From Actinomycetota bacterium (lineage in GTDB: Bacteria; Acidobacteriota; Blastocatellia; Chloracidobacteriales; Chloracidobacteriaceae): a stretch of 11,106 nt of DNA. Each line of letters starts with the position of its first letter. Position 1 is the first letter of the stretch. Under the pieces are notes generated by a model that was not told the origin of the DNA, ran no database searches, and saw only the letters and a list, made by a program, of their open reading frames with translations. The stretch covers positions 1 through 11,106 of the forward strand of contig JAAFHI010000045.1 of NCBI GenBank assembly GCA_013298335.1, read 5' to 3'. The position numbers were made by a program, and so were the translations under genes. Below are positions 2 through 11,106 of this stretch, one piece after another.

Positions 2-1624
2 GACCGGGCCCTGAAGGAAGGCGATCTCGCGGTGTTCCGCATCCGGAAGATGGTCCCGCCGCCGGACCTCCCCGCGCCGGCTTCGGACAACGGAAAGAAA
101 CCCGCCGCCGACACCACGACCGACACGCCGAAGAAGCCGAAGCCAAAGAAACCCGAAACCGACACGACCGGCACCGACGAAACGAAGCCGGCGGCCCCGA
201 AGAAACCAAAACCGGCGGCCAAGCCCAGCCCCGACCAGCCCGAAGCGTCACCCAAAAAGGCGCTGCGTGGCGGGATCCGGACCCGGAACATCGCCGGGAA
301 GACGCCCGCCCAGACGGCTCCGGCGGGCGACCCGTACCTTCTGGAAGTCGAACTTCAGCAGGTCCCGGAAATCGCCGGCGCGCTGCTCTGCCTCGACGCC
401 CGGACCGGCGAAGTCAAGGCGATGGTCGGCGGCTACGACTTCTCGGTTTCGAAGTTCAACAACGCCACCCAGGCCAACCGCCAGACCGGTTCGTGCTTCA
501 AGCCGTTCATCTACACGGCGGCGCTCGAAAACGGCTGGACGCCCGATGACACCATCGTGGACGGCCCGCTCCAGATCGGAAACTGGACGCCCCACAACTA
601 CGACAACAGTTTCGGCGGCGGCATGCCCCTCCGGACGGCGCTCGCGAAATCCCGCAACATCCCGGCGGTCAAGCTTTTACAGGATGTCGGCATCCGGCGC
701 GGCTCGGAAATGGTCAAACGCTTCGGCATCTCCAACCCGATGGCCCCCTACCTGCCGTCGGCGCTCGGCGCGACCGAAGTGCCGCTCATCGAGATGGTGT
801 CGGCCTATTCGGTCTTCCCGAATCAGGGCATGCGCCGCAAGCCGCACTACATCCGGCGGATTCTGAACTACAACGGCCAGACCGTTTTCGACTGGGAGAA
901 GGACGAGGAACAACGCGAGTTCCGGGTCATCTCGCCCTACATCGCGAGCGAAATGGTCGACATGATGCGCGGCGTGGTCGAAGGCGGAACGGCGACGGCC
1001 ATCCGGGGCGTCGCGGAAGGCGAACTCAACAAGCGCCCCACCGGCGGCAAGACCGGCACGGTCAACGACTTCACCGACGCCTGGTTCATCGGCTTCACGC
1101 CGACGGTCGTCTGCGGCACCTGGATCGGCTATCAGGGCGAAAAGAAATCGCTCGGCAACGGCGAAACCGGCGGCCATGCGGCGCTTCCCTTCTGGATCGA
1201 TTTCATGAAGGTCTACATGAAGGGCAAGCCGATCGAGAAATTCGGCGACGTACCCGCGCCCGACAAGGAACTCAAGGACCTTCAGGCGCAGCGTGACCGG
1301 ACGGAGCAGCGTGAAATCGAGAGCAACGCCGCGACGCTGACGCAGGATACCGAAGCCGGTTCGGCCAAAAAGGCCGTCAAGGGCGGTACTGACGAAAGCA
1401 CCGGCACGGGCGAAGACGGCAAACCGAAGAAACGCGAACGGACGCTGATGGAGGAATCCCTCGGCAAGACCGCCGACGACGGCACGCAGAACGCCAAGCG
1501 CGCCGGAAAGAAATCCTCCGAAAACACCAACGGCGACACGGGCAAACCCAACCGCAAACCCAAAACGCCCGGCGTCATCACCGATACGCCTCCGAAGAAG
1601 CCCACGAAGCCGGATGGCAACTGA
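2..1624 (+). CDS. Class A penicillin-binding protein (PBP1A-type), C-terminal transpeptidase part, 5' truncated by window edge
   Basis: The frame is open from base 2, so the start lies upstream; GTG at 32 is only an internal codon. The glycosyltransferase half is outside the window. The first residues (LKEGDLAVFRI) resemble the end of the OB-like domain of PBP1A, which is followed in E. coli almost directly by the transpeptidase strand seen here as VPEIAGALLCLDARTGEV. The three penicillin-binding motifs are present: SCFK with the acylated serine at 491-493, SRN at 650-658 and KTGT from 1049. The domain crosslinks peptidoglycan stem peptides outside the inner membrane. Two features are unusual. 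About 90 Lys/Pro/Thr-rich residues (roughly 60-340) separate the OB-like end from the transpeptidase, and about 120 similar hydrophilic residues form the tail after about 1260. The stop lies 6 bp before repeat block 1. Family assignment is firm; mrcA or ponA would be the usual symbols. Confidence 0.95.
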   Translation, partial: DRALKEGDLAVFRIRKMVPPPDLPAPASDNGKKPAADTTTDTPKKPKPKKPETDTTGTDETKPAAPKKPKPAAKPSPDQPEASPKKALRGGIRTRNIAGKTPAQTAPAGDPYLLEVELQQVPEIAGALLCLDARTGEVKAMVGGYDFSVSKFNNATQANRQTGSCFKPFIYTAALENGWTPDDTIVDGPLQIGNWTPHNYDNSFGGGMPLRTALAKSRNIPAVKLLQDVGIRRGSEMVKRFGISNPMAPYLPSALGATEVPLIEMVSAYSVFPNQGMRRKPHYIRRILNYNGQTVFDWEKDEEQREFRVISPYIASEMVDMMRGVVEGGTATAIRGVAEGELNKRPTGGKTGTVNDFTDAWFIGFTPTVVCGTWIGYQGEKKSLGNGETGGHAALPFWIDFMKVYMKGKPIEKFGDVPAPDKELKDLQAQRDRTEQREIESNAATLTQDTEAGSAKKAVKGGTDESTGTGEDGKPKKRERTLMEESLGKTADDGTQNAKRAGKKSSENTNGDTGKPNRKPKTPGVITDTPPKKPTKPDGN

Positions 1625-1630
1625 CCCAAA

Positions 1631-1800
1631 GGTGTCGGGTTTCGGGTGTCAGGTTTCAGGAAAAGCAAATGTTGAGTTTTGAATTTTGAATTTTGAGTTT
1701 ATCGGCTTGCCTTCCGGCGATTCGCCGTTCCATTCAAAATTCATAACTCAAAATTCAAAACTGGTTTTTACCTGAAACCCGACACCCGACACCCGACACC
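1631..1800. repeat. Nested inverted repeat built from 7-nt words (repeat block 1)
   Basis: The outer arms are 1631-1660 and 1771-1800, 30 nt each; one matches the reverse complement of the other at 28 of 30 positions. They are made of the word GTGTCGG in 7-nt period. The inner arms are AT-rich (TTTTGAA words, also period 7) around 1671-1699 and 1732-1762, with a perfect 15-bp match between 1675-1689 and 1748-1762. The apex holds a short perfect hairpin, CGGCGA-T-TCGCCG (1715-1727). The whole 170 bp can fold into one long imperfect stem. It starts 6 bp after the stop of the PBP gene, so it could act in transcription termination or mRNA 3'-end protection, but no clear T-tract follows. Confidence 0.85.
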
Positions 1801-1803
1801 TTT

Positions 1804-1828
1804 TCCTGACCCCTGATCCCTACTCCCC
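1804..1828. repeat. Degenerate 7-nt repeats abutting the ftsY start codon
   Basis: Three degenerate units, CTGACCC (1806-1812), CTGATCC (1813-1819) and CTACTCC (1820-1826), plus CC run straight into the ATG at 1829. They continue block 1 with a different word. Because they occupy the ribosome-binding position, no purine-rich Shine-Dalgarno sequence is present before ftsY. Confidence 0.7.
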
Positions 1829-3112
1829 ATGCTTTTCTGGAAACGTAAAAAAGACGATTCGCCCGCCGGACGCGCGGGTTTGACCACGCTGTTCGGCAAC
1901 GAAGCCATTCCGACCGCGCAGGCCCCGGCTGAAGTCGCGCCGGAAATTCCCGCTCCACCGGTTCCCGAAGCGGTCGTTCCGCTTCAGGTCGTGCCGGAAG
2001 CCCCGCTCCCGGCGGCGCCCGCGCCACTGCCAACGGTGGCGGAAGAGGAAAAACCGAAAACCGGCTTTCTCAAACGGCTGTTCGGACGCGGCGGCGAAGG
2101 GGAACCGGAAGCCGAACCGACGCCGGTACCCGCGCCCGCGCCGCAACCGGTCAGTGAAGAAAAGGAAAAGGAACGCTTCTTCCTGCGGATGAAGAAGGCG
2201 GTCCAGCGGACCCGCCAGAACCTCGTCGGACGGATGGATACGCTGTTCCGCGGCAAAAAGACCATCAGCCCGGAAATTCTGGAGGAACTCGAAGAAATCC
2301 TCATCGGGTCGGACATCGGCGTCCAGACCGCGCTCGATCTGGTCGAGAAAATCCGCCAGCAGGTCAACCGCAAGCTCATCAATGACACCGACGAACTCAA
2401 AAAACTGCTTCGTTCGGAACTGCTCGCGATTCTCACCGCGCCCGCCAAGTCGATTTCTGGACGCGCCGTCCGCAGCGAAACCGACATTCCGCTCGACATC
2501 CGGCCCTACGTGATGATGATGGTCGGCGTCAACGGGGTCGGGAAAACAACCACCATCGCCAAACTCGCCAACCTCATCAAGCGCGAAGGCAACGACGTGA
2601 TGGTCTGCGCGGCGGACACCTTCCGCGCCGCCGCCGCCGATCAACTCACGGTCTGGGCCGACCGGCTCGACATTCCGGTCATTCAGCAGAAGCCGGGAAC
2701 CGACCCGGCGGCGGTCGTCTACGATGCGTTGCAGGCCGCCAAGGCCCGCAACACCGACGTGGTGATCGTCGACACCGCCGGACGCCTGCACAATAAAATC
2801 AATCTGATGAACGAGTTGGAGAAAATGTCGCGCATCGCGGGTCGCGAGGTGCCGCAGGCCCCGCACGAAGTTCTACTCGTGCTCGATGCCGCGACCGGCC
2901 AGAACGGTCTCGAACAGGCGCGCCAGTTCACCAAGACCGTCCCGGTGACGGGTATCGTCCTGACCAAACTCGACGGCACGGCCAAGGGTGGCATCGTGGT
3001 CGCCATCGCCCGCGAACTGGGCGTCCCGATCCGCTACGTCGGAACCGGCGAGCAGATCGACGATCTGACCGTTTTCTCGCCCGAGGAATTCGTCAACAGC
3101 CTTTTTGAGTAG
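1829..3112 (+). CDS. ftsY: Signal recognition particle receptor FtsY
   Basis: FtsY is the membrane-associated GTPase that docks SRP-ribosome complexes at the SecYEG translocon. The 427-aa protein has a Pro/Ala/Glu-rich A region (about 1-115), a helical N domain (about 120-205) and a complete SRP-type G domain: P-loop GVNGVGKT (233-240), DTFRAAA (263-269), DTAGR (315-319), TKLD (379-382), and the closing GTGEQ (405-409) followed by [12 protein letters not shown], typical of FtsY. Two short basic-aromatic segments, LFWKRKK at 2-8 and GFLKRLFGR at 79-87, could each touch the membrane. ATG at 1829 is chosen because the N-terminus resembles other FtsY starts and the next methionine (121) would remove the whole A region. 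No Shine-Dalgarno sequence precedes it; degenerate repeats abut the start. The stop TAG at 3110-3112 overlaps the first unit of repeat block 2. Confidence 0.97.
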
Positions 3113-3318
3113 TGGTCAGTAGTCAGTAGTCAGTAGTCAGTAGTCAGTGGTCAGTGGTCAGTGGTCAGTGGTCAGTGGTCAGTGGCCGGTTTTACTGACT
3201 ACTGATGCGAATCAAGGGTTCAAACACCGCTAAACCCTTTATTTGCAACGACCAATTTCTTAAACCCTTGATTCGCACCACTGACTACTGACTACTGACT
3301 ACTGACTACTGACTACTG
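3107..3318. repeat. RGTCAGT/ACTGACT 7-nt tandem arrays in inverted orientation (repeat block 2)
   Basis: The left array runs 3114-3183 as ten uninterrupted heptamers: one GGTCAGT, four AGTCAGT, then five GGTCAGT. It is preceded by a degenerate GAGTAGT (3107-3113) that contains the ftsY stop codon, and followed by a degenerate GGCCGGT. The right array (3280-3314, plus a partial unit to 3318) is five copies of ACTGACT, the reverse complement of AGTCAGT, so the arrays can pair as a long hairpin. One further ACTGACT and a partial unit (3194-3205) lie just left of the central element in the same orientation as the right array. There are no unique spacers, so this is not CRISPR. Confidence 0.92.
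3207..3276. repeat. 70-bp AT-rich palindromic element inside the heptamer array
   Basis: Perfect 14-bp terminal inverted repeats, GCGAATCAAGGGTT (3207-3220) and its reverse complement (3263-3276), enclose 42 bp. A third related copy at 3232-3247, in the same orientation as the right arm, can pair with the left arm instead, giving two mutually exclusive hairpins. ACTGACT-type units lie on both sides in the same orientation, as if the element had been inserted into an existing array. It encodes nothing. It resembles a very small MITE- or REP-like element, but no clear target duplication can be assigned. Confidence 0.65.
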
Positions 3319-3340
3319 GATTTCGATGGAGTTTTTGCTG

Positions 3341-3835
3341 ATGACGCCACAATTTCCGCCACCCGACCGCCCGACCGACATCTACGGCGCGGCCATGCCG
3401 AACCAGCTGTTTTCAATCGAACCCGACCCGGAACTTCTGGAACAGATTCACTCCAGTGCAAACTGGTTCTACTGGATTGGCGGCCTCTCGCTTATCAACT
3501 CGATCATCACCCATGCTGGCGGTCGCTTCGGGTTCTTCTTCGGACTTGCCGTTTGCCAGGTGGCGGATGCCGTCCTCCAGCATATCGAGTCGATTGGAAC
3601 GGTGGTGGCCATTGCCTTTGACGTACTCATCGCGGCTCTGTTCTGCCTGTTCGGCTGGCTCGCGAACAAACGGATGCAGTGGGTGTTCTGGGTCGGGATG
3701 TTGTTTTACACGGCGGATGGACTCATTTCCCTGCTTGCACAGGATTACATCGGCCTTGTCGTCCATGGGATTGCCCTCTTTTTCATCTTCAAAGGTGTCC
3801 TGGCACTTCAGGCCCTGCGACGAATGAGCGCCTGA
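3341..3835 (+). CDS. Small polytopic membrane protein of unknown function
   Basis: The 164-aa protein has a polar Pro-rich N-terminus (1-40) and then four or five hydrophobic segments at about 42-57, 62-78, 85-106, 113-133 and 138-157. The positive cluster NKRMQW (about 109-114) lies between two of them and a basic ALRRMSA ends the protein, suggesting a cytoplasmic C-terminus. Glycine- and aromatic-rich stretches such as GGRFGFFFGLAVCQ resemble uncharacterised bacterial membrane proteins; no enzymatic motif is visible. ATG at 3341 is preferred because GGAG (3328-3331) lies 9 nt upstream. An in-frame ATG at 3326 would add five residues but sits against the repeat array without a ribosome-binding site. 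Codon third positions look somewhat more AT-rich than in the neighbouring genes. It is probably its own transcription unit, converging on the minus-strand gene ending at 3949. Confidence 0.8.
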   Translation: MTPQFPPPDRPTDIYGAAMPNQLFSIEPDPELLEQIHSSANWFYWIGGLSLINSIITHAGGRFGFFFGLAVCQVADAVLQHIESIGTVVAIAFDVLIAALFCLFGWLANKRMQWVFWVGMLFYTADGLISLLAQDYIGLVVHGIALFFIFKGVLALQALRRMSA

Positions 3836-3883
3836 GGTCGATTACCCGGTTCGTTTCTGTTCAGCCGCTGTGACCAAGAGAAA

Positions 3884-3921
3884 AGCCCACGTCCTCGCCA
3901 AAAGCGCTCCGGACGCGGGCT
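3884..3921 (-). terminator. Intrinsic terminator between convergent genes
   Basis: The arms 3884-3894 and 3911-3921 form an 11-bp stem. Read on the minus strand the one non-Watson-Crick pair is G-U and the stem is followed by TTTTCTCTT, so it is a good terminator for the minus-strand gene ending at 3949. On the plus strand the same position is an A-C mismatch and the stem is followed by the T-rich ATTTCCTTT, so it may also work weakly for the membrane protein gene ending at 3835. Confidence 0.8.
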
Positions 3922-3948
3922 ATTTCCTTTGTCAGTCTGAAAACCGTT

Positions 3949-5877
3949 CTAAATGGCCTCGCCGCAGTGGGGGCAGATGACGTCGAGACTGCTGACGGTT
4001 TCGTAACAGTGGGGGCAGAAGGCGGTCGTGGTCGCGCCCACCGGCGCTTCCGGGAAATCGGGCGCGAGGAACGAACCGGAGAGCGGCGTTCCCCCGGAAG
4101 GAGTGAATGTACTCGCCGGACTGGCCTTCCCTTCGATCTGCGCGGCGATTCCCACCACCGGGACAACTTCATTTTCGCCGGTCACGCTGTCGCCGGGGAC
4201 GTCGGCTTCGTCAAACATCTCGGACATGTCGGATGGCGGAATGATCGAGACGTTCGAAAGGTCCTGAGTGACCGATTCGGGCAGTTCGACTTCATCCACC
4301 TCGTACAACCCCTCGATCTGGACCGAGGCGTTACTGGTATCGAAATGAATCGAGACCCCCTCCGAGAGATCGGGCGCGGGCATTTCCGCTGTGATGTGCT
4401 GCGGGACGGCGAAATCCATCTCGTCCACCGGCGGCGCGGGCAGCGGGGCGAACATATTGCGCGACGGATACGGGTCGGTGAACGGCGCGGGCGCGGGTTT
4501 ACCCGATTCATCCTCGAAATACGAGGCATAGAAACCGCTCGCCACGACCGAATAGGAGTCGGCGAGCGAGTCGGACGAGGGCCGCGCATCGGCCACGACT
4601 TCGGGGATGGGTTCCGGGGAAACCGCCGGTGGAACGACCGGTTCCGGGCCGGAATCTTCCGCTGATTCGGATGGCGCTTCGGATGCCGCGACCGGTTCTT
4701 CCGCGCCGCCCGAGGAAAAATCCACCGCGACGTCCATTGTCGGAATCAGTGGGGCCGAGCCGGACTCGTCCGGCGGAGACGGTTCTTCCGCCGCCCGCGC
4801 TTCGGCAGGTTCGCCAGGTTCGCCAGGTTCGCAAGTGGCAACGAGCGGGGTCGTGACGAAGCGTTCCGGGTCGGCGAGGTCATCCGCCGGCGTTTCCACC
4901 GCGAGCGCCGCAACCCGCGCGGCATCCGCCGCTTCGGCTGCTTCGGCCTCTTCCGCCGCCATTTCGGAGGCAACGTCGGAGAAGTCCCCTTCCCAGCGCG
5001 CCGGGGCAGCCGCTTCGACGACCGGCGGCGGCAGGTCGGCGACATAGGACGCCGGGGGGATGGACGTGTCCTGAGCCAGTTCGCCGGAGGGCGGCGCGTA
5101 CCATTCGTTGTCCGGCGGGGTCGAAAACCAGTCGTTGGTGGTCGGCTGCGGGACGATTTCCACCGAATCGGGTACCACGACCGGGCCGAGTTCATCGAGA
5201 TTGTCCAGAATGTCGTCGAGCGTGTCGGTCAGTTCGCGGTCGAATTCATCGGTCGGTGGGCCCTCGGGCCGGCGGTCGAAGCGATATTCGGGCGGCAGCG
5301 ACTGTTCGTAATCAGGAGTCGTCGAAACGTCATCCGCGTCGGGGTCTCCGACGGGCGGCTTGGCGGCGCGCAGTTCCGCCGGAACGACCATTTCCATCGA
5401 ATTCATCGGCGGAGGAAGTTCGACGTTGTCGGAAACCGGGATTTCCGGCTCGAAGGCTGCCATTTCCTCTTCGCCGAGCGAAAACGACCCGGTATCCGGA
5501 CCGCCGAGTCCGTACTTCTTCCAGAGCCGGTTGAAGGTATCGAGCAGGGCGAAGGGGTCGAGCGGCTTCGCCATGACCTCGTCGGCCCCGGCGTGCAGCG
5601 CCTCTTCCCGGTTAAACGGCTCGAAGTCGTTGTAAATAATCAGGATCGGCGCTTTGTAGTTGAGCGTGTTGCGGATGTACTTGCAGGCTTCATACCCCGT
5701 CTGGCCCGGCATGAGAAAGTCGAGCACGATGAATTCGGGGTACATCTCCTTGGCCCGCCGGGTGGCGAGATCGCCGTTTCCGACCGCGACTACTTCAAAC
5801 CCCTGGGTTTGCAGGAAAACCTGCAAATCGCGGCGGGTCGGAACATGGTCGTCGGCGATAAGAATCCTGCGGGTCAT
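3949..5877 (-). CDS. Response regulator: receiver domain, long acidic disordered region, C-terminal zinc ribbon
   Basis: The 642-aa protein begins with a CheY-like receiver domain (about 1-122): acidic pair D9-D10, phospho-acceptor D53 in VLDFLMP, and K104 in AKPL. The position normally held by the switch Thr/Ser is Tyr82 (ILIIYND), so output coupling may differ from classical regulators. Residues about 125-615 are acidic, Pro/Ala/Ser-rich and probably disordered, with an Ala-Glu helical stretch and a GEP-GEP repeat. The last 22 residues form a four-cysteine zinc ribbon (C621, C624, C635, C638; two CPHC motifs). No DNA-binding, kinase or enzymatic domain is visible, so it probably acts through protein contacts. 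The ATG at 5875-5877 is supported by AGGT 6 nt upstream and by an immediate receiver start (MTRRILIADD). It lies downstream of the other response-regulator gene on the same strand and ends before a terminator. Confidence 0.85.
   Translation of the reverse strand: MTRRILIADDHVPTRRDLQVFLQTQGFEVVAVGNGDLATRRAKEMYPEFIVLDFLMPGQTGYEACKYIRNTLNYKAPILIIYNDFEPFNREEALHAGADEVMAKPLDPFALLDTFNRLWKKYGLGGPDTGSFSLGEEEMAAFEPEIPVSDNVELPPPMNSMEMVVPAELRAAKPPVGDPDADDVSTTPDYEQSLPPEYRFDRRPEGPPTDEFDRELTDTLDDILDNLDELGPVVVPDSVEIVPQPTTNDWFSTPPDNEWYAPPSGELAQDTSIPPASYVADLPPPVVEAAAPARWEGDFSDVASEMAAEEAEAAEAADAARVAALAVETPADDLADPERFVTTPLVATCEPGEPGEPAEARAAEEPSPPDESGSAPLIPTMDVAVDFSSGGAEEPVAASEAPSESAEDSGPEPVVPPAVSPEPIPEVVADARPSSDSLADSYSVVASGFYASYFEDESGKPAPAPFTDPYPSRNMFAPLPAPPVDEMDFAVPQHITAEMPAPDLSEGVSIHFDTSNASVQIEGLYEVDEVELPESVTQDLSNVSIIPPSDMSEMFDEADVPGDSVTGENEVVPVVGIAAQIEGKASPASTFTPSGGTPLSGSFLAPDFPEAPVGATTTAFCPHCYETVSSLDVICPHCGEAI
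4806..4832. repeat. In-frame 9-nt tandem repeat within the receiver/zinc-ribbon gene
   Basis: Three perfect copies of CAGGTTCGC encode, on the minus strand, the GEP-GEP-AE stretch of the acidic linker. Because the period is a multiple of three, copy number can change without breaking the frame. Confidence 0.85.
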
Positions 5878-5895
5878 GGGCTGACCTGTTTACAA

Positions 5896-6124
5896 TCACA
5901 GTCCTCTGGCGATGGGCTTGACGCGCCGGTCTTCGACCGTGATGGAAACTGCGATGCGCCGGCGGTTGAACGGGGTCTTCCTGTTTCCTGCCTGCGCAAC
6001 ATTCGGTGAAACCGGGTAAACGGAAAACGTCCAGCGCGTCGTTGCACTGGCGCCTGACGGTGACGAGGGCGTCAATGGGTGACGCGCAAGTGTTCTTCCC
6101 TGGCTGGATCACGGAAGGTCATAC
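5896..6124 (-). pseudogene. Decayed copy of the C-terminal domain of the adjacent DUF4388 protein
   Basis: This stretch aligns along its length with the 3' end of the intact gene beside it (about 6127-6362). In the minus-strand translations, MTFRDPAREEHL (from 6122) matches VTFSDPAREEHL; LVTVRRQCNDALDVF matches VVTAKRLCGEALDDF; and RIAVSITVEDRRVKPIARGL, ending at a TGA at 5896-5898, matches the last 20 residues of the intact protein. The three pieces lie in three reading frames and a TGA at 6072-6074 interrupts the first, so the copy cannot make the domain. The segment is about 7 nt shorter than its intact counterpart. It starts right after the intact gene's stop, so it is either a tandem partial duplication or the remains of a full second gene. 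Only the C-terminal domain is recognisable. Confidence 0.85.
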
Positions 6125-6126
6125 GC

Positions 6127-8319
6127 CTAGAGCCCCTTGGCGATGAACTTGACGCGACCGCTTTCAACGGTGACGGAAAAGGCGATGTGCGTGCAGTTCA
6201 ACTGGGCCTTAATCTTGGTGGCCTGCTCGCACAGAATGCGGTGAAACCGGACAAAGGTGAAGTCGTCGAGCGCCTCGCCGCACAGGCGTTTGGCGGTGAC
6301 GACGGCATCGTAGAGCTGCCGCGCGAGGTGTTCTTCCCGCGCCGGGTCGCTGAAGGTCACCCGATATTCGTTTCCGCCCGAGAAATCCGGTCCGGGGATG
6401 GCCGCCACCGGGGGCGAAACGCCACCCATCGGGGGCTGGGCCGCGAGCGGCGCGGTCGGCGGGTTCAGCGGACTGGTCCCGAGCGGGCTGGCGCCGTAAC
6501 CGGACGGGGCCGGCGGCGACAACGGCGAGGTGGCGGATCCTCCACCGTAGGGGTTCGCGTAGGGACTCGTGTAGGGCGCGGCCGGCGGCGGATACTGGGG
6601 TGTCAGCGGCGGCGGGGTGGCCGACGGCGGATAGATCGGCGGCGGTTGTTGATATGACGGCGGCGCGTATCCTCCGCCATAGGACGGGGGCGGCGGTTGC
6701 AACGGCTGACTGTAGCTTGGCGGCGGCGGATACTGGGGAGGCTGCGGGGGTGTCGGCGGCGGATAGGCCGGGTACACGGGCTGGACGGGCAGCGGATGGG
6801 AAACCTGGGACGACATCCCCGGATACCGCTGGCCGCCGTTCGGCGCGAACGCCTCGCGCGCCTGGGACGACCAGAGCGTCGCGAGCATCCGGAGCAGGTC
6901 GAGGTCATCTAGACACTGGTCGATACACTCGCCGACGATCCGCTTGCCGTCCACGAGCGAAACGATGCGGCGCACATGCTCCTGCGTCGAACCGGCGAAC
7001 CACGTCACGTCGAAGTCGGGCGGGAAGGCCGCCGGAAGGTGGCGGGGCGGCAGCGTCGCGAGCAGGGCCTGTTCCTCGTCGTAGCGGTGGAGGGCTTCGA
7101 GAATCAGTTCCGCCGCCCGCATCTGAATCCGGTTTTCGCGGGTCACCGGCTGCTGGGTGAAGGAATAGCTCCCTTCCGACCAGTTGATCATCCGGATGAT
7201 GGCGCTCAGTCCGGTGCTCTGCCCGCATTCGGCGTCGAAGGCCGCGCCGTCCTTGAAATGAATGGCCCCGGCTTCCTGGCGCGGGGTGACGATCTTGAGC
7301 ACGCCGTCCTTGCGCTCGCGCTCCATCTGGTTGAGCAGGTCGGTAACGCTCGTCTGCGACAACTGGCCGGAAATCCGGGTCAGGGTCGGCGTCCGCCGCA
7401 GGATGCGCTTCACCTTGAGCGGGATCTCCTTCACGCTGAAGGGCTTCCCCCAGTAGTCCTCGACGCCCTGTTCGAGCGCCGACACCTTTTCGTCCTCCTG
7501 CGCGCGCGAGGACAGGCAGACAAACGGAATTTTCGAAAGGTTCGGGTCCTGCTGCAACGCGGCGAACAACTGGCTGCCGTCCATTTTCGGCATCATCAGG
7601 TCGGAGATGACGAGCGCCGGGTTGTTGACGCGGGCGATGTCGAGCGCTTCGAGGCCGTTGGCGGCGGTCACGATCTGGCAGCCGAGCGGCTTGATGATCT
7701 TTTCGAGAATCATCAGGACGTGGGGTTCGTCATCCACGAGCAGCACCAGCCGGTCGGAAAAATCGTCGCCTTTCTGCCCGGTCGTGCCATCCTCGTTGAC
7801 CCAGGTCGCCTTCGCTCCCTGCATCCACTTGTCGTTGCGCTCCTGGATCATCTCCCGCAGTTCCTTGCGGTAGTCGGCGTCTTTTTCGCCGAAGCCGGGG
7901 AGCATCTTCAGGAAACCGGCGGCGGCGTCCTGCTGCTGGTCGTTGAGGTAGAGGCTGATGACCTGTCGGGAGTATTCGTAGGCTTTGTCGAACTGGCGGG
8001 TGTCGAAGTAGATGTTGACGATCTGCTTGAGAATGGTCGCCCGCTGGGTGCTGTCCACCAGCTTTTCGATCTTGCGATAGAACGCGAGGGCGAGTTCGTG
8101 CTGCTTGGTCGTGCGGTAGAGGTCGGCGAGCTGGAGGAAGTGCGCGACCGCGGCTTCGACGTTGCCGGCTTCCTGATACTTTTCCCCAAGCTGGCGCAGC
8201 GCCTCGTGGTTGCCGGGGTTTTCCTTGACCATTTGCGCCAATTGCTCGATTTCCCGACCAAGTTTCATTTGGTCGAGCTGACTGGCAACCTGGCGGCGAA
8301 CGTTCTTGAAAAGTTCCAT
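6127..8319 (-). CDS. TPR - receiver - DUF4388 (PATAN) protein with Pro/Tyr-rich linker and small conserved C-terminal domain
   Basis: The 730-aa cytoplasmic protein has five parts. Residues about 20-165 are TPR-like helices (LRQLGEKYQEAGNVEAAVAH, then ELALAFYRKIEKL). A receiver domain (190-308) has D196-D197, phospho-acceptor D240 (VISDLMMP), S270 at the switch position and K292. A DUF4388/PATAN region (about 313-415, FKDGAAFDAECG) is followed by a helical region to about 490. A Pro/Tyr/Gly-rich linker (about 507-648) carries repeated PPPSY-like motifs. The final domain (650-730), with KRLCGEALDDFTFVRFHRIL and a strand pair ending VKFIAKGL, resembles the C-terminal domain named after Myxococcus MXAN_5187; that match is from memory. 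DUF4388 proteins are linked to two-component signalling and motility or polarity in some bacteria; the role here is unknown. The ATG at 8317-8319 follows GGTGA about 6 nt upstream. A sigma70-like promoter lies about 120 bp upstream. Confidence 0.88.
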   Translation of the reverse strand: MELFKNVRRQVASQLDQMKLGREIEQLAQMVKENPGNHEALRQLGEKYQEAGNVEAAVAHFLQLADLYRTTKQHELALAFYRKIEKLVDSTQRATILKQIVNIYFDTRQFDKAYEYSRQVISLYLNDQQQDAAAGFLKMLPGFGEKDADYRKELREMIQERNDKWMQGAKATWVNEDGTTGQKGDDFSDRLVLLVDDEPHVLMILEKIIKPLGCQIVTAANGLEALDIARVNNPALVISDLMMPKMDGSQLFAALQQDPNLSKIPFVCLSSRAQEDEKVSALEQGVEDYWGKPFSVKEIPLKVKRILRRTPTLTRISGQLSQTSVTDLLNQMERERKDGVLKIVTPRQEAGAIHFKDGAAFDAECGQSTGLSAIIRMINWSEGSYSFTQQPVTRENRIQMRAAELILEALHRYDEEQALLATLPPRHLPAAFPPDFDVTWFAGSTQEHVRRIVSLVDGKRIVGECIDQCLDDLDLLRMLATLWSSQAREAFAPNGGQRYPGMSSQVSHPLPVQPVYPAYPPPTPPQPPQYPPPPSYSQPLQPPPPSYGGGYAPPSYQQPPPIYPPSATPPPLTPQYPPPAAPYTSPYANPYGGGSATSPLSPPAPSGYGASPLGTSPLNPPTAPLAAQPPMGGVSPPVAAIPGPDFSGGNEYRVTFSDPAREEHLARQLYDAVVTAKRLCGEALDDFTFVRFHRILCEQATKIKAQLNCTHIAFSVTVESGRVKFIAKGL

Positions 8320-8441
8320 GCCTCTTCACCCAACGAACGGAACGAACTTCGCGATGACATCGTTCGAATCGGCAGCGTAGGCCCAAGCAACGAGCGGGTC
8401 GAGCGAAACCCCGTAACGGAAATGGCTGCGGTTGAACGGCG

Positions 8442-8470
8442 AGTGTAGGTTAAGTCTCCCCCGGAATCAA
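8442..8470 (-). promoter_or_regulatory. Sigma70-like promoter for the minus-strand response-regulator genes
   Basis: Read on the minus strand, TTGATT (8465-8470) and TACACT (8442-8447) are separated by exactly 17 nt. Each matches four of six consensus bases. Transcription would start near 8435, giving a leader of about 115 nt before the ATG at 8319. The positions are seen directly; activity is inferred. Confidence 0.5.
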
Positions 8471-8547
8471 CGACGGGCGGACGGGCATCATCCCGAAAAG
8501 GCGGGGCGTTCCGCAAGACTTTTCTGTTTTTTCCATTGTCCCCCACG

Positions 8548-8577
8548 TTGACGATAAGGAGAAGCGAAATCTACACT
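8548..8577 (+). promoter_or_regulatory. Sigma70-like promoter for the PEGA protein-kinase gene pair
   Basis: TTGACG (8548-8553, five of six consensus bases) and TACACT (8572-8577) are 18 nt apart. Transcription would start near 8584, about 50 nt before the ATG at 8633. The -10 hexamer is identical to that of the divergent minus-strand promoter. The rest of the 8320-8632 gap shows no gene. Confidence 0.5.
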
Positions 8578-8632
8578 TGCGGATTCGTGAACCGGTTTCG
8601 CCGCGCGATTTTTCACAACCTGAAAACATCCC

Positions 8633-10012
8633 ATGACCCCAACGCTGACCACACCGACCAAAACGATCGACCGCCCAACCGCGGCGTGGCGGTCGCGCGC
8701 GTGGCAAACGTGGGTTGTCGTCCTGAGCGGCGTCGGGCTTTCGGTCGGGTTCGTCTGGGGGGGCGTGCTGCTCTATCTGCGCCGGACGCCGCCGATGGGA
8801 ACCGTCACCGTGGTGACCAATCCGCTCGGCGCGACAGTCTTTCTCGACGGACGCGGGGTCGGGGTCTCGCCCTGCACGCTGGAACATGTCGTCGTCGGCA
8901 CGCACACAATCCGGGCCTCGAAAGAGGGCTACCTGCTGCTCGAACGGATCGTCTACGTCGATTCGGGGCAGTCGCTCGACGTGACCGGGCTGGTCCTTCA
9001 GCCGATTAAAACCGAAACGCCGAAAAAATCCGCCCCCGACGAGGCCCCGACCGAACGCATCGCCGAATTTCTGCGCCGTTCCGAGGAAGCCTTCGCGCGC
9101 GGCGACTTCCTCGCGCCGGAAAACGACAACGCCCTTTACTACGCCGATGCCGTCCTGCTCATCCAGCCCGACAACGCCCCGGCGCTGAACATGCGGACGC
9201 TCGTCCGCGACGCGCTCTCCAGACAGGCCGAAGTCGCCATCAGCCGCGGCGACCTCGCGACCGCCCAGAACACCTACGGCGCGCTCGCCAGCCGCTTTCC
9301 CGACGAACCCGGTGGCGAGGCGGGCGTGACGAAAGTCGGCGAACTGCTCGAAAACCGGCAGGATCAGGTCGAACAACTGCTCGCGAACGCCGAACGGGCG
9401 TTCAACGCCGGAAGGTACGTGGAGCCGCGACTGGCCAGCGTCTACTACTACACCGCGCAGGTGCTCGCCATTGACCGGACCAACGCCGACGCCCTCGCGC
9501 TGCGCGGCAAACTGCGGCGCGTGCTCAGGATTCAGGTCGAAAACCAGGCGGCCGAAAACGACCCGGAAGCGACGCTGGCCGAATACCGCAAGCTCGTCCG
9601 CCTCTTCCCCGAGGATCGCCAGTTTGCCCAGCGGCTGCGCGACTTTCCCCGGCCCGAGCCAACGTCAAAGGGGTCCGCGACCCGCGCCCGCGCCTTCTCC
9701 GCGCCCGCGCGCCTGGAATCCGGCGCCACCGACGGCGAAAGCGAACCGGATTCATCCATCTTTCCCGGAACGCTCTCGATTTCGCCGACCGGATTGCGCT
9801 TTGCGGCCCGCGAAGGCGGCCGGAGCTTCACCGCTCCCATCGCCCGCGTGACGGCGGTCCGGGCATCCGGCACGACCCTGACCGTCATCATCGACGGCAC
9901 CGAATATCGCTTCACCTGCGCTTCCGCAGCCGAGTTCGCGCGCATCCACCGCGTCTTGCGGGCCGCCGATCCCGCCCCGACCGAATCTGAACCATCCGCT
10001 CCGAAAGAATGA
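8633..10012 (+). CDS. Membrane-anchored PEGA-domain protein with two-fold TPR-like repeat and PH-like C-terminus
   Basis: The 459-aa protein has a short basic N-terminus, one transmembrane helix (about 26-48) and a PEGA domain (about 56-125: GTVTVVTNPLGATVFLDGRG, then GTHTIRASKEGY). Residues 147-226 and 249-328 are two diverged copies of a helical TPR-like module, aligned at EEAFARGDF/ERAFNAGRY, ALYYADAVLLI/VYYYTAQVLAI and RFPDEP/LFPEDR. The end (about 376-442) alternates short strands and finishes with a helix (LSISPTGLRF, FTAPIARVTAVR, EYRFTCASAAEFARIHRVL), resembling a PH or GRAM-like fold; that is inference. PEGA domains are common in envelope proteins; here the domain would follow the membrane helix, probably outside the cytoplasm. 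ATG at 8633 has no strong Shine-Dalgarno but directly precedes the membrane anchor. The stop overlaps the next gene's start by 4 bp (ATGA), implying translational coupling. Confidence 0.8.
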   Translation: MTPTLTTPTKTIDRPTAAWRSRAWQTWVVVLSGVGLSVGFVWGGVLLYLRRTPPMGTVTVVTNPLGATVFLDGRGVGVSPCTLEHVVVGTHTIRASKEGYLLLERIVYVDSGQSLDVTGLVLQPIKTETPKKSAPDEAPTERIAEFLRRSEEAFARGDFLAPENDNALYYADAVLLIQPDNAPALNMRTLVRDALSRQAEVAISRGDLATAQNTYGALASRFPDEPGGEAGVTKVGELLENRQDQVEQLLANAERAFNAGRYVEPRLASVYYYTAQVLAIDRTNADALALRGKLRRVLRIQVENQAAENDPEATLAEYRKLVRLFPEDRQFAQRLRDFPRPEPTSKGSATRARAFSAPARLESGATDGESEPDSSIFPGTLSISPTGLRFAAREGGRSFTAPIARVTAVRASGTTLTVIIDGTEYRFTCASAAEFARIHRVLRAADPAPTESEPSAPKE

Positions 10013-11031
10013 CTTCCCAGCTCACCAAATCGCCCGCCGAACGCCTCACCGGCTTCGTTTCGAAACAGTTTCCCGGTCGCACCGTCCGCATCGAAGCCCT
10101 TCCGGGCGACGCCTCGACGCGGGCCTACTTCCGGCTTTTCGCCGACGGCGAAACCTACATCGCGGCGACCTACGCCGAAGCCTTCGCCGAAGCCGACTTT
10201 CCCTATCTCGACGTGACCGAACTCTTCGCGGAAGCGGGCATCGCGGTGCCGCGCGTGGTCGCGGCGGACGGCGCGGCGGGCGTCGTCCTTCAGGAAGACC
10301 TCGGCGACCGCCGGTTGCAGGATGCCCTCACGACCATGACGCCCGAGGAACGGACGGCGGCCTACGAGGCGGCGGTGGACCTCATCGTCGAATTCCAGAA
10401 GGCGACCCCGCTCGCCGAACGCCGCGACTCGATTGCGTGGCGGCTGGCCTTCGACGACGAAAAGCTGTTCTGGGAAATGAACTACTTTTTCCGGAACTAC
10501 TGCGTACGCTACCGCAAGCTCGACATCACCCCCGAGTACGAAGCGGTCATCCTCGGCGAACTCTTCGCGCTGTCGCACCGGCTGGCGAACGTCCGGCGGG
10601 TCGTCTGCCACCGCGACTACCACGCGCGGAATCTGATGTGCCAGGGAAATACGCTCCGGGTCATCGACCATCAGGACGCCCGGATGGGCCCCGCGAGCTA
10701 CGACATCGTCTCGCTCGTCGGCGATCCCTACGCCGCGCTCGACCCCGACTTTCAGGCCGCGCTGGTGGACCGCTTCTGGAACGCCCATCTTGCCGCCTTC
10801 GGGACGACCTACTACGCCGACCGCGCCGCCTTCGACGCGGAATACCACCTCATGATGATCCAGCGGATGATCAAGGCGGTCGGGACCTACGCGTTTCAGG
10901 CGGCGGTCCGCAACAATCCGGTCTACGTCGGCTACATCCCGCACGCCTTCGCCGCCGTCGCGAAATCCCTTGCCCTCGTCGCCGACCTGCCGGAAACAAC
11001 CACGCTGGTGACGGAGAGTCTAGGAGTCTAG
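10009..11031 (+). CDS. AmgK-like sugar kinase (aminoglycoside phosphotransferase family)
   Basis: The 340-aa protein matches the APH/choline-kinase fold. An N-lobe motif LPGDASTRAYFRL (31-43) resembles the start of AmgK proteins. The catalytic loop is HRDYHARNLM (H201, D203, N208), and the metal-binding segment is IDHQDARMGPASYDIVSL (D220). AmgK phosphorylates N-acetylmuramate and N-acetylglucosamine at the anomeric carbon in a peptidoglycan recycling route, commonly next to the nucleotidyltransferase MurU; any such partner would lie beyond the right edge. As in other AmgK-type proteins there is no obvious N-lobe lysine. The start is the ATG of the 4-bp overlap with the PEGA gene, so the two are probably co-translated. 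The last codons and the stop TAG (11029-11031) are made of repeat block 3, so the C-terminal SLGV may be repeat-derived. The specific substrate is inferred. Confidence 0.82.
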   Translation: MTSQLTKSPAERLTGFVSKQFPGRTVRIEALPGDASTRAYFRLFADGETYIAATYAEAFAEADFPYLDVTELFAEAGIAVPRVVAADGAAGVVLQEDLGDRRLQDALTTMTPEERTAAYEAAVDLIVEFQKATPLAERRDSIAWRLAFDDEKLFWEMNYFFRNYCVRYRKLDITPEYEAVILGELFALSHRLANVRRVVCHRDYHARNLMCQGNTLRVIDHQDARMGPASYDIVSLVGDPYAALDPDFQAALVDRFWNAHLAAFGTTYYADRAAFDAEYHLMMIQRMIKAVGTYAFQAAVRNNPVYVGYIPHAFAAVAKSLALVADLPETTTLVTESLGV

Positions 11032-11106
11032 GAGTCTGGGGAGTCTGGGGAGTCTGGGGAGTCTGGGGAGTCTGGGGAGTCTGGGGAGTCTGGGGAGTCT
11101 GGGGAG
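11017..11106. repeat. 8/9-nt tandem array overlapping the kinase stop codon, cut by the window edge (repeat block 3)
   Basis: Two copies of AGTCTAGG (11017-11032) are followed by eight perfect copies of AGTCTGGGG (11033-11104) and the start of a ninth unit. The array begins inside the kinase gene and supplies its stop codon. Its full length and any inverted partner lie past the right edge. Confidence 0.95.

Follow-up and report, generated by a model that had tools for sequence, protein, structure and literature searches.

Repeat arrays of many word families abut stop codons in a genome of the Chloracidobacteriaceae

Intergenic elements built from 7–9 nt repeats lie almost invariably at stop codons in the genome to which the DNA analysed here belongs. 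Among the elements located between codirectional genes, 32 out of 33 began at most 10 nt from the stop, compared to 15.2 under a null of uniform placement within intergenes and 21 in the highest of 5,000 runs. The anchoring held more weakly in G003, a genome of the same family, in which 44 out of 70 codirectional elements had such a gap (null 18.2, top of 5,000 runs 29) and 26 lay away from the stop. The three repeat blocks of the window, meaning the whole 11,106-nt stretch analysed, prove little by themselves; tentatively, we regard them as part of a genome-wide set of intergenic elements made of 7–9 nt words.

Both genomes were sampled by contigs. Of the 116 contigs sampled, 30 read as N; these were removed before gaps and densities were counted. 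Blocks at contig ends (9 in the own genome of the window, 8 in G003) were excluded from the gap tests. The window itself is part of the own sample, where it accounts for 2 of the 33 codirectional elements (both stop-anchored), and the word lexicon was derived from the same sample as the tested elements. Since genes were predicted with a home-made codon-usage caller, their starts are less sure than their stops. Word families were assigned by simple expressions, with at least one row (L046 565) mis-sorted, and four contigs (L047–L050) were fetched for the AGT pattern outside the sample.

The window corresponds to one entire contig (C797). Its three blocks start at 1628, 3111 and 11017, and, as the preliminary description had correctly pointed out, each lies at the end of a plus-strand gene. 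Block 1 is anchored by the stop codon (ending at 1624) of an open-ended ORF that represents the 3' part of a PBP1A-like penicillin-binding protein gene (2..1624, plus strand; Pfam Transpeptidase PF00905, E 3.9e-37; best NCBIfam match TIGR02074, with a score under the family cut-off). Three nucleotides past this stop, a left arm of GGTGTCG-type heptamers begins (1628..1664, plus strand, G-rich on the coding strand), whose reverse complement forms the right arm (1767..1803, minus strand; 92% complementarity), and nested between them lies an inner hairpin of TTTTGAA heptamers (1675..1762; arms 1675–1700 and 1737–1762, 88% complementary). Next to the right arm, 8 nt short of the following start, lies a word from another family (1803..1820; minus-strand sequence GGGATCAGGGGTCAGGAA), an 18-mer that recurs in elements of three other sampled contigs. 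The gene that follows is ftsY, coding for the SRP receptor (1829..3112, plus strand; TIGR00064, 358 bits, cut-off 260.7). Block 2 begins within its TAG stop codon (3110–3112) and consists of a left array (AGTRGTC)n (3111..3185, plus strand, found by Tandem Repeats Finder, TRF), an inner hairpin (3203..3280; arms 3203–3223 and 3260–3280, 90% complementary) and a right array (ACTACTG)n, the reverse complement of the left one (3277..3318, minus strand), with 98% complementarity between 3117–3158 and 3277–3318. Both blocks are inverted pairs with a nested inner pair, a structure that the preliminary description had missed, and they occupy whole intergenes, block 1 together with the adjoining word at 1803–1820. 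Block 2 stops 7 nt before a small-protein gene (3326..3835, plus strand, ORF call) for which no Pfam or NCBIfam match was found at E 0.001.

Block 3 (AGTCTAGG followed by (GGAGTCTGG)n; 11017..11106, plus strand; supported by TRF and shuffles) is truncated by the contig end and begins inside an APH/AmgK-like kinase gene (10009..11031, plus strand; PF01636, E 2.9e-23, and homologues), whose final four residues (SLGV) and TAG stop codon (11029–11031) it encodes. The earlier claim that the TAG belongs to a repeat unit in blocks 2 and 3 hence holds for the latter and in part for the former, where the first unit contains AG. An 86%-identical APH homologue, P0002, has the C-terminus GSLES, which could also be spelled by an AGTCTGG-type array, and this protein end may likewise be repeat-encoded. 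For each of six stretches of the window (1631–1660 among them), none out of 10,000 shuffles matched the observed 7- or 9-nt self-similarity. The two minus-strand genes of the window have no TRF array at their 3' ends, as described. Gene bodies, which had likewise been described as free of repeats, contain no 7-nt array according to TRF but do contain other units, namely a 9-nt unit with 3.6 copies at 4801–4832 within a minus-strand gene and further in-gene repeats with units of 6, 9, 12 and 23 nt. No Rfam family reached its gathering threshold in the window.

Across the samples, 7–9 nt arrays were predominantly intergenic (47 versus 6 within genes in the own genome, 113 versus 3 in G003), with a period of 7 in 37 of the 47 own intergenic arrays. 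Anchoring was also seen where there was room to lie elsewhere: with at least 60 nt to spare, 16 of 17 own elements lay at the stop (1.5 expected) and none at the start, the G003 values being 22 of 46 at the stop (3.8 expected) and 5 at the start. In convergent intergenes, all 10 own elements abutted a stop (null 7.3, p 0.002), as did 6 out of 7 in G003, a value that was not significant (null 4.9, p 0.14). Counting arrays only, independently of the lexicon, gave stop gaps of at most 10 nt in 21/34 own and 21/64 G003 cases (null 8.8 and 8.9; reached in 0 of 2,000 runs for either genome). Start gaps of at most 10 nt were found for 13/33 own elements (null 15.2) and 15/70 in G003 (null 18.1), so that the start-proximal placement typical of TAACTGA repeats is not seen here. 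Own arrays started between positions −14 and +10 relative to the stop. The excess at stops, whose absence would by the preliminary description have refuted its rule, is present across the genome sample, and it did not disappear when the strip before the next start was left out: excluding 20 nt, the null for the own elements was 15.9 (highest 23) compared to the observed 32; excluding 50 nt, arrays-only counts were 11/14 versus 2.7 (own) and 14/38 versus 4.9 (G003); and excluding 100 nt, they were 6/9 versus 2.9 and 10/28 versus 3.3. Promoter avoidance as the sole cause was rejected on these results. Divergent intergenes were avoided in the own genome (1/51), while no such depletion was seen in G003 (10/25 versus 70/166, p 1.0).

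The elements also have a polarity. Stop-side arrays were G-rich on the coding strand in 27/31 own and 40/47 G003 cases, and start-side arrays were C-rich on the sense strand in 9/10 and 21/24. In complete elements, a G-rich array is followed, after a loop, by its inverted complement; some elements are nested or stacked. An inverted 11-mer partner was present within the same intergene in 13/27 own cases, compared to 5.6% in other array-bearing intergenes, and in 18/64 G003 cases, compared to 10%. Blocks lacking an inverted repeat (9/27 own, 30/59 G003) were anchored too: 8 of the 9 own ones lay within 4 nt of the stop, and in G003 the gap was at most 10 nt for 12/30 unpaired and 9/29 paired blocks. 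Ordered series of variant units recurred, unchanged in order, at unlinked loci, and low-periodicity 18-mers shared by elements of at least three contigs numbered 30 in the own genome and 96 in G003 (raw counts, both strands).

One word family showed a preference among stop codons. AGTCAGT-family elements followed TAG in 6/8 own cases (background 72/402, p 7e-4) and in 7/8 on other own contigs chosen for that word, one of them probably being the antisense of a start; for 8 of 15 distinct own AGT arrays, an ORF on the same strand stopped no more than 60 nt 5' of the array. This link to TAG was not seen in G003 (1/8). For 16 distinct AGT arrays from 12 other genomes (L231–L248), such a stop was found in 9 (6 TAG, 3 TAA), a count that is uninformative because some of these stops are the array's own TAG or belong to antisense frames. 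At ftsY loci, we counted 15 period-7 arrays in a mostly Bacteroidota set (L060–L130; 705,922 bases); the loci of named Acidobacteriota (L051–L059; 79,108 bases) held a single array of period 9 and no period-7 array.

The explanation that we would put first, even though we stop short of calling it probable, is that the blocks are dispersed REP-like elements whose mode of spread puts them at stops. Copies would spread to new sites and be placed directly at the stop, sometimes extending into the final codons so that the stop codon itself comes from the repeat, through a process that might recognise, or whose products might survive only at, the junction between coding sequence and 3'UTR. Slippage could afterwards lengthen or shorten the arms. 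In the transcript, the elements would make up the start of the 3'UTR, form a very stable predicted hairpin and might work in the manner of REP/BIME. We count in favour of such spread the stop gaps, the polarity, the inverted partners, the anchoring of unpaired blocks, the shared 18-mers, the repeat-encoded end of the APH gene and the TAG preference, all given above. Anchoring is also tighter than for ordinary 3' hairpins in intergenes free of arrays, where 14/63 (own) and 11/36 (G003) started before +10. Against it we count the G003 elements away from the stop, the undepleted divergent intergenes, the non-significant convergent test and the missing TAG link of that genome, as well as the GSLES end of P0002. 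According to the parts of Di Nocera et al. 2013 (PMC3733652) that describe their location, REP/BIME are palindromic, usually follow coding regions in codirectional or convergent intergenes, and are plausibly transcribed into hairpins. The present elements share the palindromic structure and the position downstream of genes, although not all blocks are paired. They differ in having arms made of 7–9 nt tandem arrays of many words, with no tagged 20–40 bp unit seen, and in that Y1 genes are not flanked by them. A search for a mobilising enzyme found none, which also counts against such spread: Y1 (RAYT-type) transposases are present, but 7-nt arrays lay within about 1.5 kb of only 2 of 14 Y1 loci, with a 9-nt array at one more. 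The 7-nt array densities predict about 9 of 14 (an arithmetic estimate); flanking of RAYT genes by arrays was not seen at these loci. AGT-pattern arrays occurred in 0/8 genomes without and 13/31 with Y1 matches (39 genomes including the own; p 0.035), a comparison that is confounded with genome size and concerns a single word. In a bolder version, which we consider unlikely, a mechanism indifferent to the word would put heptamer-array hairpins at stop codons and set their orientation, with the stop/3'UTR junction itself and no motif as the target, for example through RNA or DNA ends tied to translation termination; the arrays would then be a class of mobile 3'-end caps common to several phyla that keep their site as their words change.

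The main rival of REP-like spread is selection for a 3'-end RNA hairpin, which we judge possible but less probable. Here, the arrays would be enlarged versions of the post-stop hairpins of the clade that prevent readthrough or shield the 3' end of the mRNA, with the word drifting freely. Consistent with this, blocks 1 and 2 of the window are predicted to fold strongly (block 1, −101.3 kcal/mol, z −12.4; block 2, −129.2 kcal/mol, z −14.4; z versus shuffles). In the ordinary 3' hairpins of array-free genes, the left arm was richer in G in 42, in C in 18 and tied in 3 own cases (28, 2 and 6 in G003); G-rich left arms are common to ordinary hairpins and therefore fit a functional reading. The ftsY 3' end carries a hairpin of another word, AGGACTG, in genome G001, while in G003 and G004 it has plain hairpins that immediately follow the stop codon, and the APH 3' end carries a different heptamer array in G003. 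However, no array was found at the APH end of G004 or the ftsY end of G009, between a third (own) and half (G003) of the blocks are unpaired yet anchored, own arrays are placed more tightly than ordinary hairpins, and inverted repeats are frequent in array-free intergenes as well (33/99 own, 35/77 G003). Among five reciprocal-best pairs of orthologous 3' ends in the two samples, four had no array on either side and one had an array on both, a set too small to weigh. The share of hairpins followed by at least 4 T within 8 nt was similar for arrays (6/18 own, 12/29 G003) and ordinary hairpins (21/63 and 9/36), a likeness in favour of the rival. Mean T content after array hairpins was 3.17 (own) and 2.83 (G003), compared to 2.23 and 2.22 expected; such weak T-tracts speak against the rival and, together with the anchoring of unpaired arrays, led us to reject intrinsic termination as a full explanation. 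With respect to known repeats, the transcript analyses in PMC4692102 report that G4-type repeats coincide with transcript starts or ends more often than control repeats do, but that a regulatory role could not be identified. Of the two causes offered in the preliminary description, targeted insertion and a 3'-end function, both still stand, with termination the poorly supported part for want of a consistent T-tract.

Passive tolerance is doubtful and is weakened by the present data. It would have slippage-grown repeats arise or insert anywhere and be purged from genes, promoters and ribosome-binding sites, so that the stop side remains, which agrees with the avoidance of genes in both genomes and of divergent intergenes in the own one; nevertheless, anchoring persists with room to spare, in own convergent intergenes and with start strips excluded, and tolerance alone leaves the polarity unexplained. 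It is very improbable that the elements act as sense-strand G-quadruplexes, a role that has been discussed for GGGNATC repeats: words such as GGGTGTC and GGGATCA contain spaced G3 runs, and location and strand match those given for GGGNATC repeats in the distribution data of PMC4692102, but a four-run G3 motif occurred in the first 90 nt of only 2/42 own and 8/51 G003 stop-anchored elements (two-G type motifs in 21/42 and 22/51), and words such as GAATTGA lack any GG. We therefore rejected a G3-type G4 for most elements.

Cyanobacterial STRRs and long simple sequence repeats (LSSRs) resemble the present arrays in unit length and intergenic location. They are not known for stop anchoring or polarity. 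LSSRs of like unit length and intergenic position are also cited by MacGregor 2015 (PMC4679880), whose sections on TAACTGA repeats in Beggiatoaceae, cyanobacteria and Bacteroidetes place the BOGUAY copies mostly just 5' of starts, with one indirect repeat versus 169 direct sets. The present elements likewise are dispersed intergenic heptamers of patchy phylogeny, with mixed words in some genomes, but they lie at stops and are often inverted. The passages of PMC12699852 on short tandem repeats report that 6–9 bp units are enriched in prokaryotic phyla and that repeats were measured around prokaryotic translation ends, and they give no bacterial stop result. Our literature search returned no stop-anchored heptamer rule in Acidobacteriota among titles and abstract openings, and nothing on intergenic tandem repeats in Chloracidobacterium.

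A close precedent is the GGGNATC/GGGGAYT heptamer arrays that Rehm et al. 2015 (PMC4692102) described in Xanthomonas and Nostoc. As far as the parts of that study on repeat location go, these are mostly intergenic, G-rich on the sense strand within 50 bp of stops and antisense within 50 bp upstream of ORFs, with few in divergent intergenes, some overlapping the stop codon, and inverted pairs numbering 70 in Xcc, 75 in Xac and few in Nostoc; distances are binned by 0–50 bp, and in Xanthomonas the nearest 5' ORF is on average 28 nt away. Our elements agree in being intergenic heptamers, in strand on both sides, in inverted pairing and in stop overlap. They depart from this precedent in their many word families per genome, the rarity of G3-type G4 motifs, an anchor resolved to 10 nt and their occurrence in Acidobacteriota, and the GGGNATC/GGGGAYT consensus with its G4-forming potential is not characteristic of them. 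The stop rule is hence partly known, since a similar one was reported for a single word in those two genera, and the view that stop anchoring is no standard description is only partly right: it does not hold for GGGNATC-type heptamers, for which PMC4692102 gives the same preference and strand. New here are the many word families within one genome, the near-invariant anchoring, the rarity of G3-type G4 motifs (2/42) and a gene in which the repeat codes for the last four residues and the stop.

Heptamer arrays are common repeats of bacterial genomes that have so far lacked an explanation. The rule found here, a position within about 10 nt of the stop on a fixed strand, holds for unrelated words and therefore argues against a G4 or a single binding motif as the general reason. 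Two testable reasons remain, a spreading process that senses gene ends or a common RNA role at the 3' end, and either of them, if true, would be informative on how bacterial 3'UTRs are made.

The window, all of contig C797 in a draft genome of 5.11 Mb and 1093 contigs, carries genes for a PBP1A-like protein, FtsY, a small protein of no known family, a PEGA protein and an APH/AmgK-like kinase; its minus strand encodes two response-regulator proteins. The named FtsY relatives with the top scores are from Blastocatellia or other Acidobacteriota (53–65% identity). The three short-repeat blocks listed in the preliminary description, at the ends of the PBP1A-like, ftsY and APH-like genes, all proved real in a tandem-repeat scan and against shuffles. 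Blocks 1 and 2 each form an inverted pair that fills its intergene and holds a second, inner hairpin; their RNA folds (-101.3 and -129.2 kcal/mol, respectively) were equalled in 0 of 200 shuffles. Block 3 starts inside the APH-like gene, whose final four residues (SLGV) and TAG stop are repeat-encoded. A 99% identical homologue (P0001) has the same C-terminal end, while an 86% identical one (P0002) ends in MKEVGSLES; as an AGTCTGG-type array could spell GSLES, judging from the protein sequence, this gene end may be an array too. Between the two minus-strand genes, the stretch at 5878–6126 contains a worn copy of the upstream response-regulator/TPR gene's 3' part (72% identical over a 222-nt alignment).

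We sampled the window's own genome (C1–C16 plus every ninth contig from C20 to C911, 116 contigs; 86 contigs and 475,618 bases once 30 all-N contigs were dropped) and G003, an 8.4-Mb genome of the same family (first 20 contigs, at most 20 kb each; 360,275 bases, 51% GC). Genes were called by codon usage, which makes stop positions sure and start positions less so. Arrays of 7–9 nt words were intergenic in 47 cases and within genes in 6 in the own genome, and in 113 and 3 cases in G003, where array density in the sampled stretches (L249–L268) was about three times higher. A stricter scan of the own sample returned 33 arrays, 26 of them with period 7; shuffled contigs gave one array (period 6), leaving aside 30 period-5 matches due to the N contigs. 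Contigs tend to break at arrays, the window's own end included: one lay within 150 nt of 9 of 172 sampled own contig ends vs 3.6 expected.

The proposal that repeat blocks are anchored at stops was borne out in both samples, more weakly in G003 (paired figures give the own genome first). For arrays alone, the gap to the flanking stop was at most 10 nt in 21/34 and 21/64 cases, against nulls of 8.8 and 8.9 (matched in 0 of 2,000 runs); for starts, the counts were 3/20 and 10/64 (nulls 3.7 and 7.5). Because an arrays-only scan misses worn arms, each element was extended with 10-mers from all arrays and with inverted arms, a method whose chance rate within genes was 0.65 and 1.25 matches per kb. 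Among extended elements in codirectional intergenes, 32/33 in the own genome began between -14 and +10 of the stop, the sole exception lying at 94; in G003, 44/70 had a stop gap of at most 10 nt. Where at least 60 nt of the intergene was free, 16/17 and 22/46 were at the stop (expected 1.5 and 3.8), and 0 and 5 at the start. In convergent intergenes, elements abutted a stop in 10/10 (null 7.3, p 0.002) and 6/7 cases (null 4.9, p 0.14). Elements occupied 33/257 codirectional, 10/56 convergent and 1/51 divergent own intergenes (p 0.025 and 0.009 vs divergent); no divergent depletion was seen in G003 (70/166, 7/24 and 10/25).

Placement was accompanied by a strand polarity. Arrays no further than 50 nt from a stop were G-rich on the coding strand in 27/31 and 40/47 cases, and those equally close to a start were C-rich on that strand in 9/10 and 21/24. 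An inverted 11-mer partner within the same intergene was found for 13/27 and 18/64 blocks, over a background of 5.6% and 10% from other array-bearing intergenes; by a looser measure, 18/27 and 29/59 blocks held an inverted repeat, vs 33/99 and 35/77 array-free intergenes. Unpaired own blocks are as tightly anchored as paired ones, with a stop gap of at most 4 nt in 8/9 blocks lacking an inverted repeat and at most 10 nt in 12/18 having one (G003, at most 10 nt: 12/30 and 9/29). Read by eye, three intergenes (L192 2500–2833, L215 3088–3396, L200 1965–2294) seemingly hold two or three tandem copies, which take in the element plus the gene's last codons, or a whole element unit.

The words themselves are diverse. 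Own stop-side families, sorted by simple expressions and with soft edges, include AGTCAGT, GGTGTCG, GGATCAGG, AAGGATGA, GAATTGA, GAATGCGG, GAGTCTTGG and, in one case, GGAGACAA; the leading words of G003 differ (GGGTTCA, GGGGTTC, AGTGGTT) under the same polarity rule. Low-periodicity 18-mers in elements on at least three contigs numbered 30 and 96, raw counts without a null that include both strands, so that distinct ones are about half; one, GGGATCAGGGGTCAGGAA, lies on four own contigs, the window among them. That unlinked loci have ordered variant units in common suggests copying, not slippage arising independently from site to site. The stop preceding an AGTCAGT element was TAG in 6/8 own cases (background 72/402, p 7e-4) and in 1/8 in G003. 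G3-type G4 motifs occurred in 2/42 and 8/51 elements.

A search of 39 genomes, including the own one, found pattern AGTNGTCAGTNGTCAGT in 13; it was commonest in G003 (630+496) and gave zero matches in G001 and the seven genomes of g3. This genus of the same family, three of whose members have 3.7 Mb in two contigs, is probably Chloracidobacterium, going by the names that homologues of the APH-like protein bear. The pattern undercounts arrays, since G001, from another genus, carries an inverted pair of AGGACTG heptamers 9 nt past the ftsY TAG (L289). The ftsY stop is followed by ordinary hairpins in G003 and G004. In G004 and G009 (L287, L288), ftsY lies directly opposite the response-regulator gene, as identified by eye, and no array is present, so block 2 and the small familyless gene (window 3113–3835) look like later additions. 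The APH-like gene has an AGTGGTK array 4 nt downstream in G003 and no array at its 3' end in G004. These two gene ends (ftsY, APH-like) that bear words other than the window's are suggestive only, because 66/214 gene ends in the G003 sample carry an element.

For one class of G-rich words, Rehm et al. 2015 (PMC4692102) already report a rule of the same direction, along with inverted pairs and repeats overlapping the stop; the TAACTGA repeats described in MacGregor 2015 (PMC4679880) are mostly start-proximal, and a 3' preference is shared with REPs (PMC3733652). As far as our literature searches show, what is new is the 10-nt resolution, a single genome's many words (most of them non-G4), the phylum and the repeat-encoded gene end.

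For these elements, the position and polarity, the frequent occurrence as inverted pairs, the diversity of words and the sharing of ordered units are demonstrated, and selection for a 3'-end RNA hairpin would share most predictions with placement at stops by the mode of spread. Ordinary hairpins were found in 63/170 and 36/102 array-free 3' regions (shuffles 15.3 and 5.7), mostly starting 0–40 nt past the stop, with a left arm that was G-rich in 42, C-rich in 18 and tied in 3 own cases (28, 2 and 6 in G003; 10, 6 and 3 for own hairpins starting by +12) and a following T-tract in 21/63 and 9/36. Arrays thus match them in polarity and T-content, but lie nearer the stop. This closeness, the fact that unpaired arrays are anchored as well, the repeat-encoded end of the APH-like gene and the own-genome link of AGTCAGT elements to TAG slightly favour placement by the mode of spread over an RNA role. 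For the mobilising agent, RAYT transposases are an obvious candidate: AGT-pattern arrays occurred in 13/31 genomes with RAYT-type matches and 0/8 without, a contrast confounded with genome size, and at the Y1 loci checked the RAYT genes were not flanked by arrays. Under placement by spread, copies of the elements would move to new sites, the process itself would set each at a stop, arrays would grow through slippage, and the elements would be transcribed.
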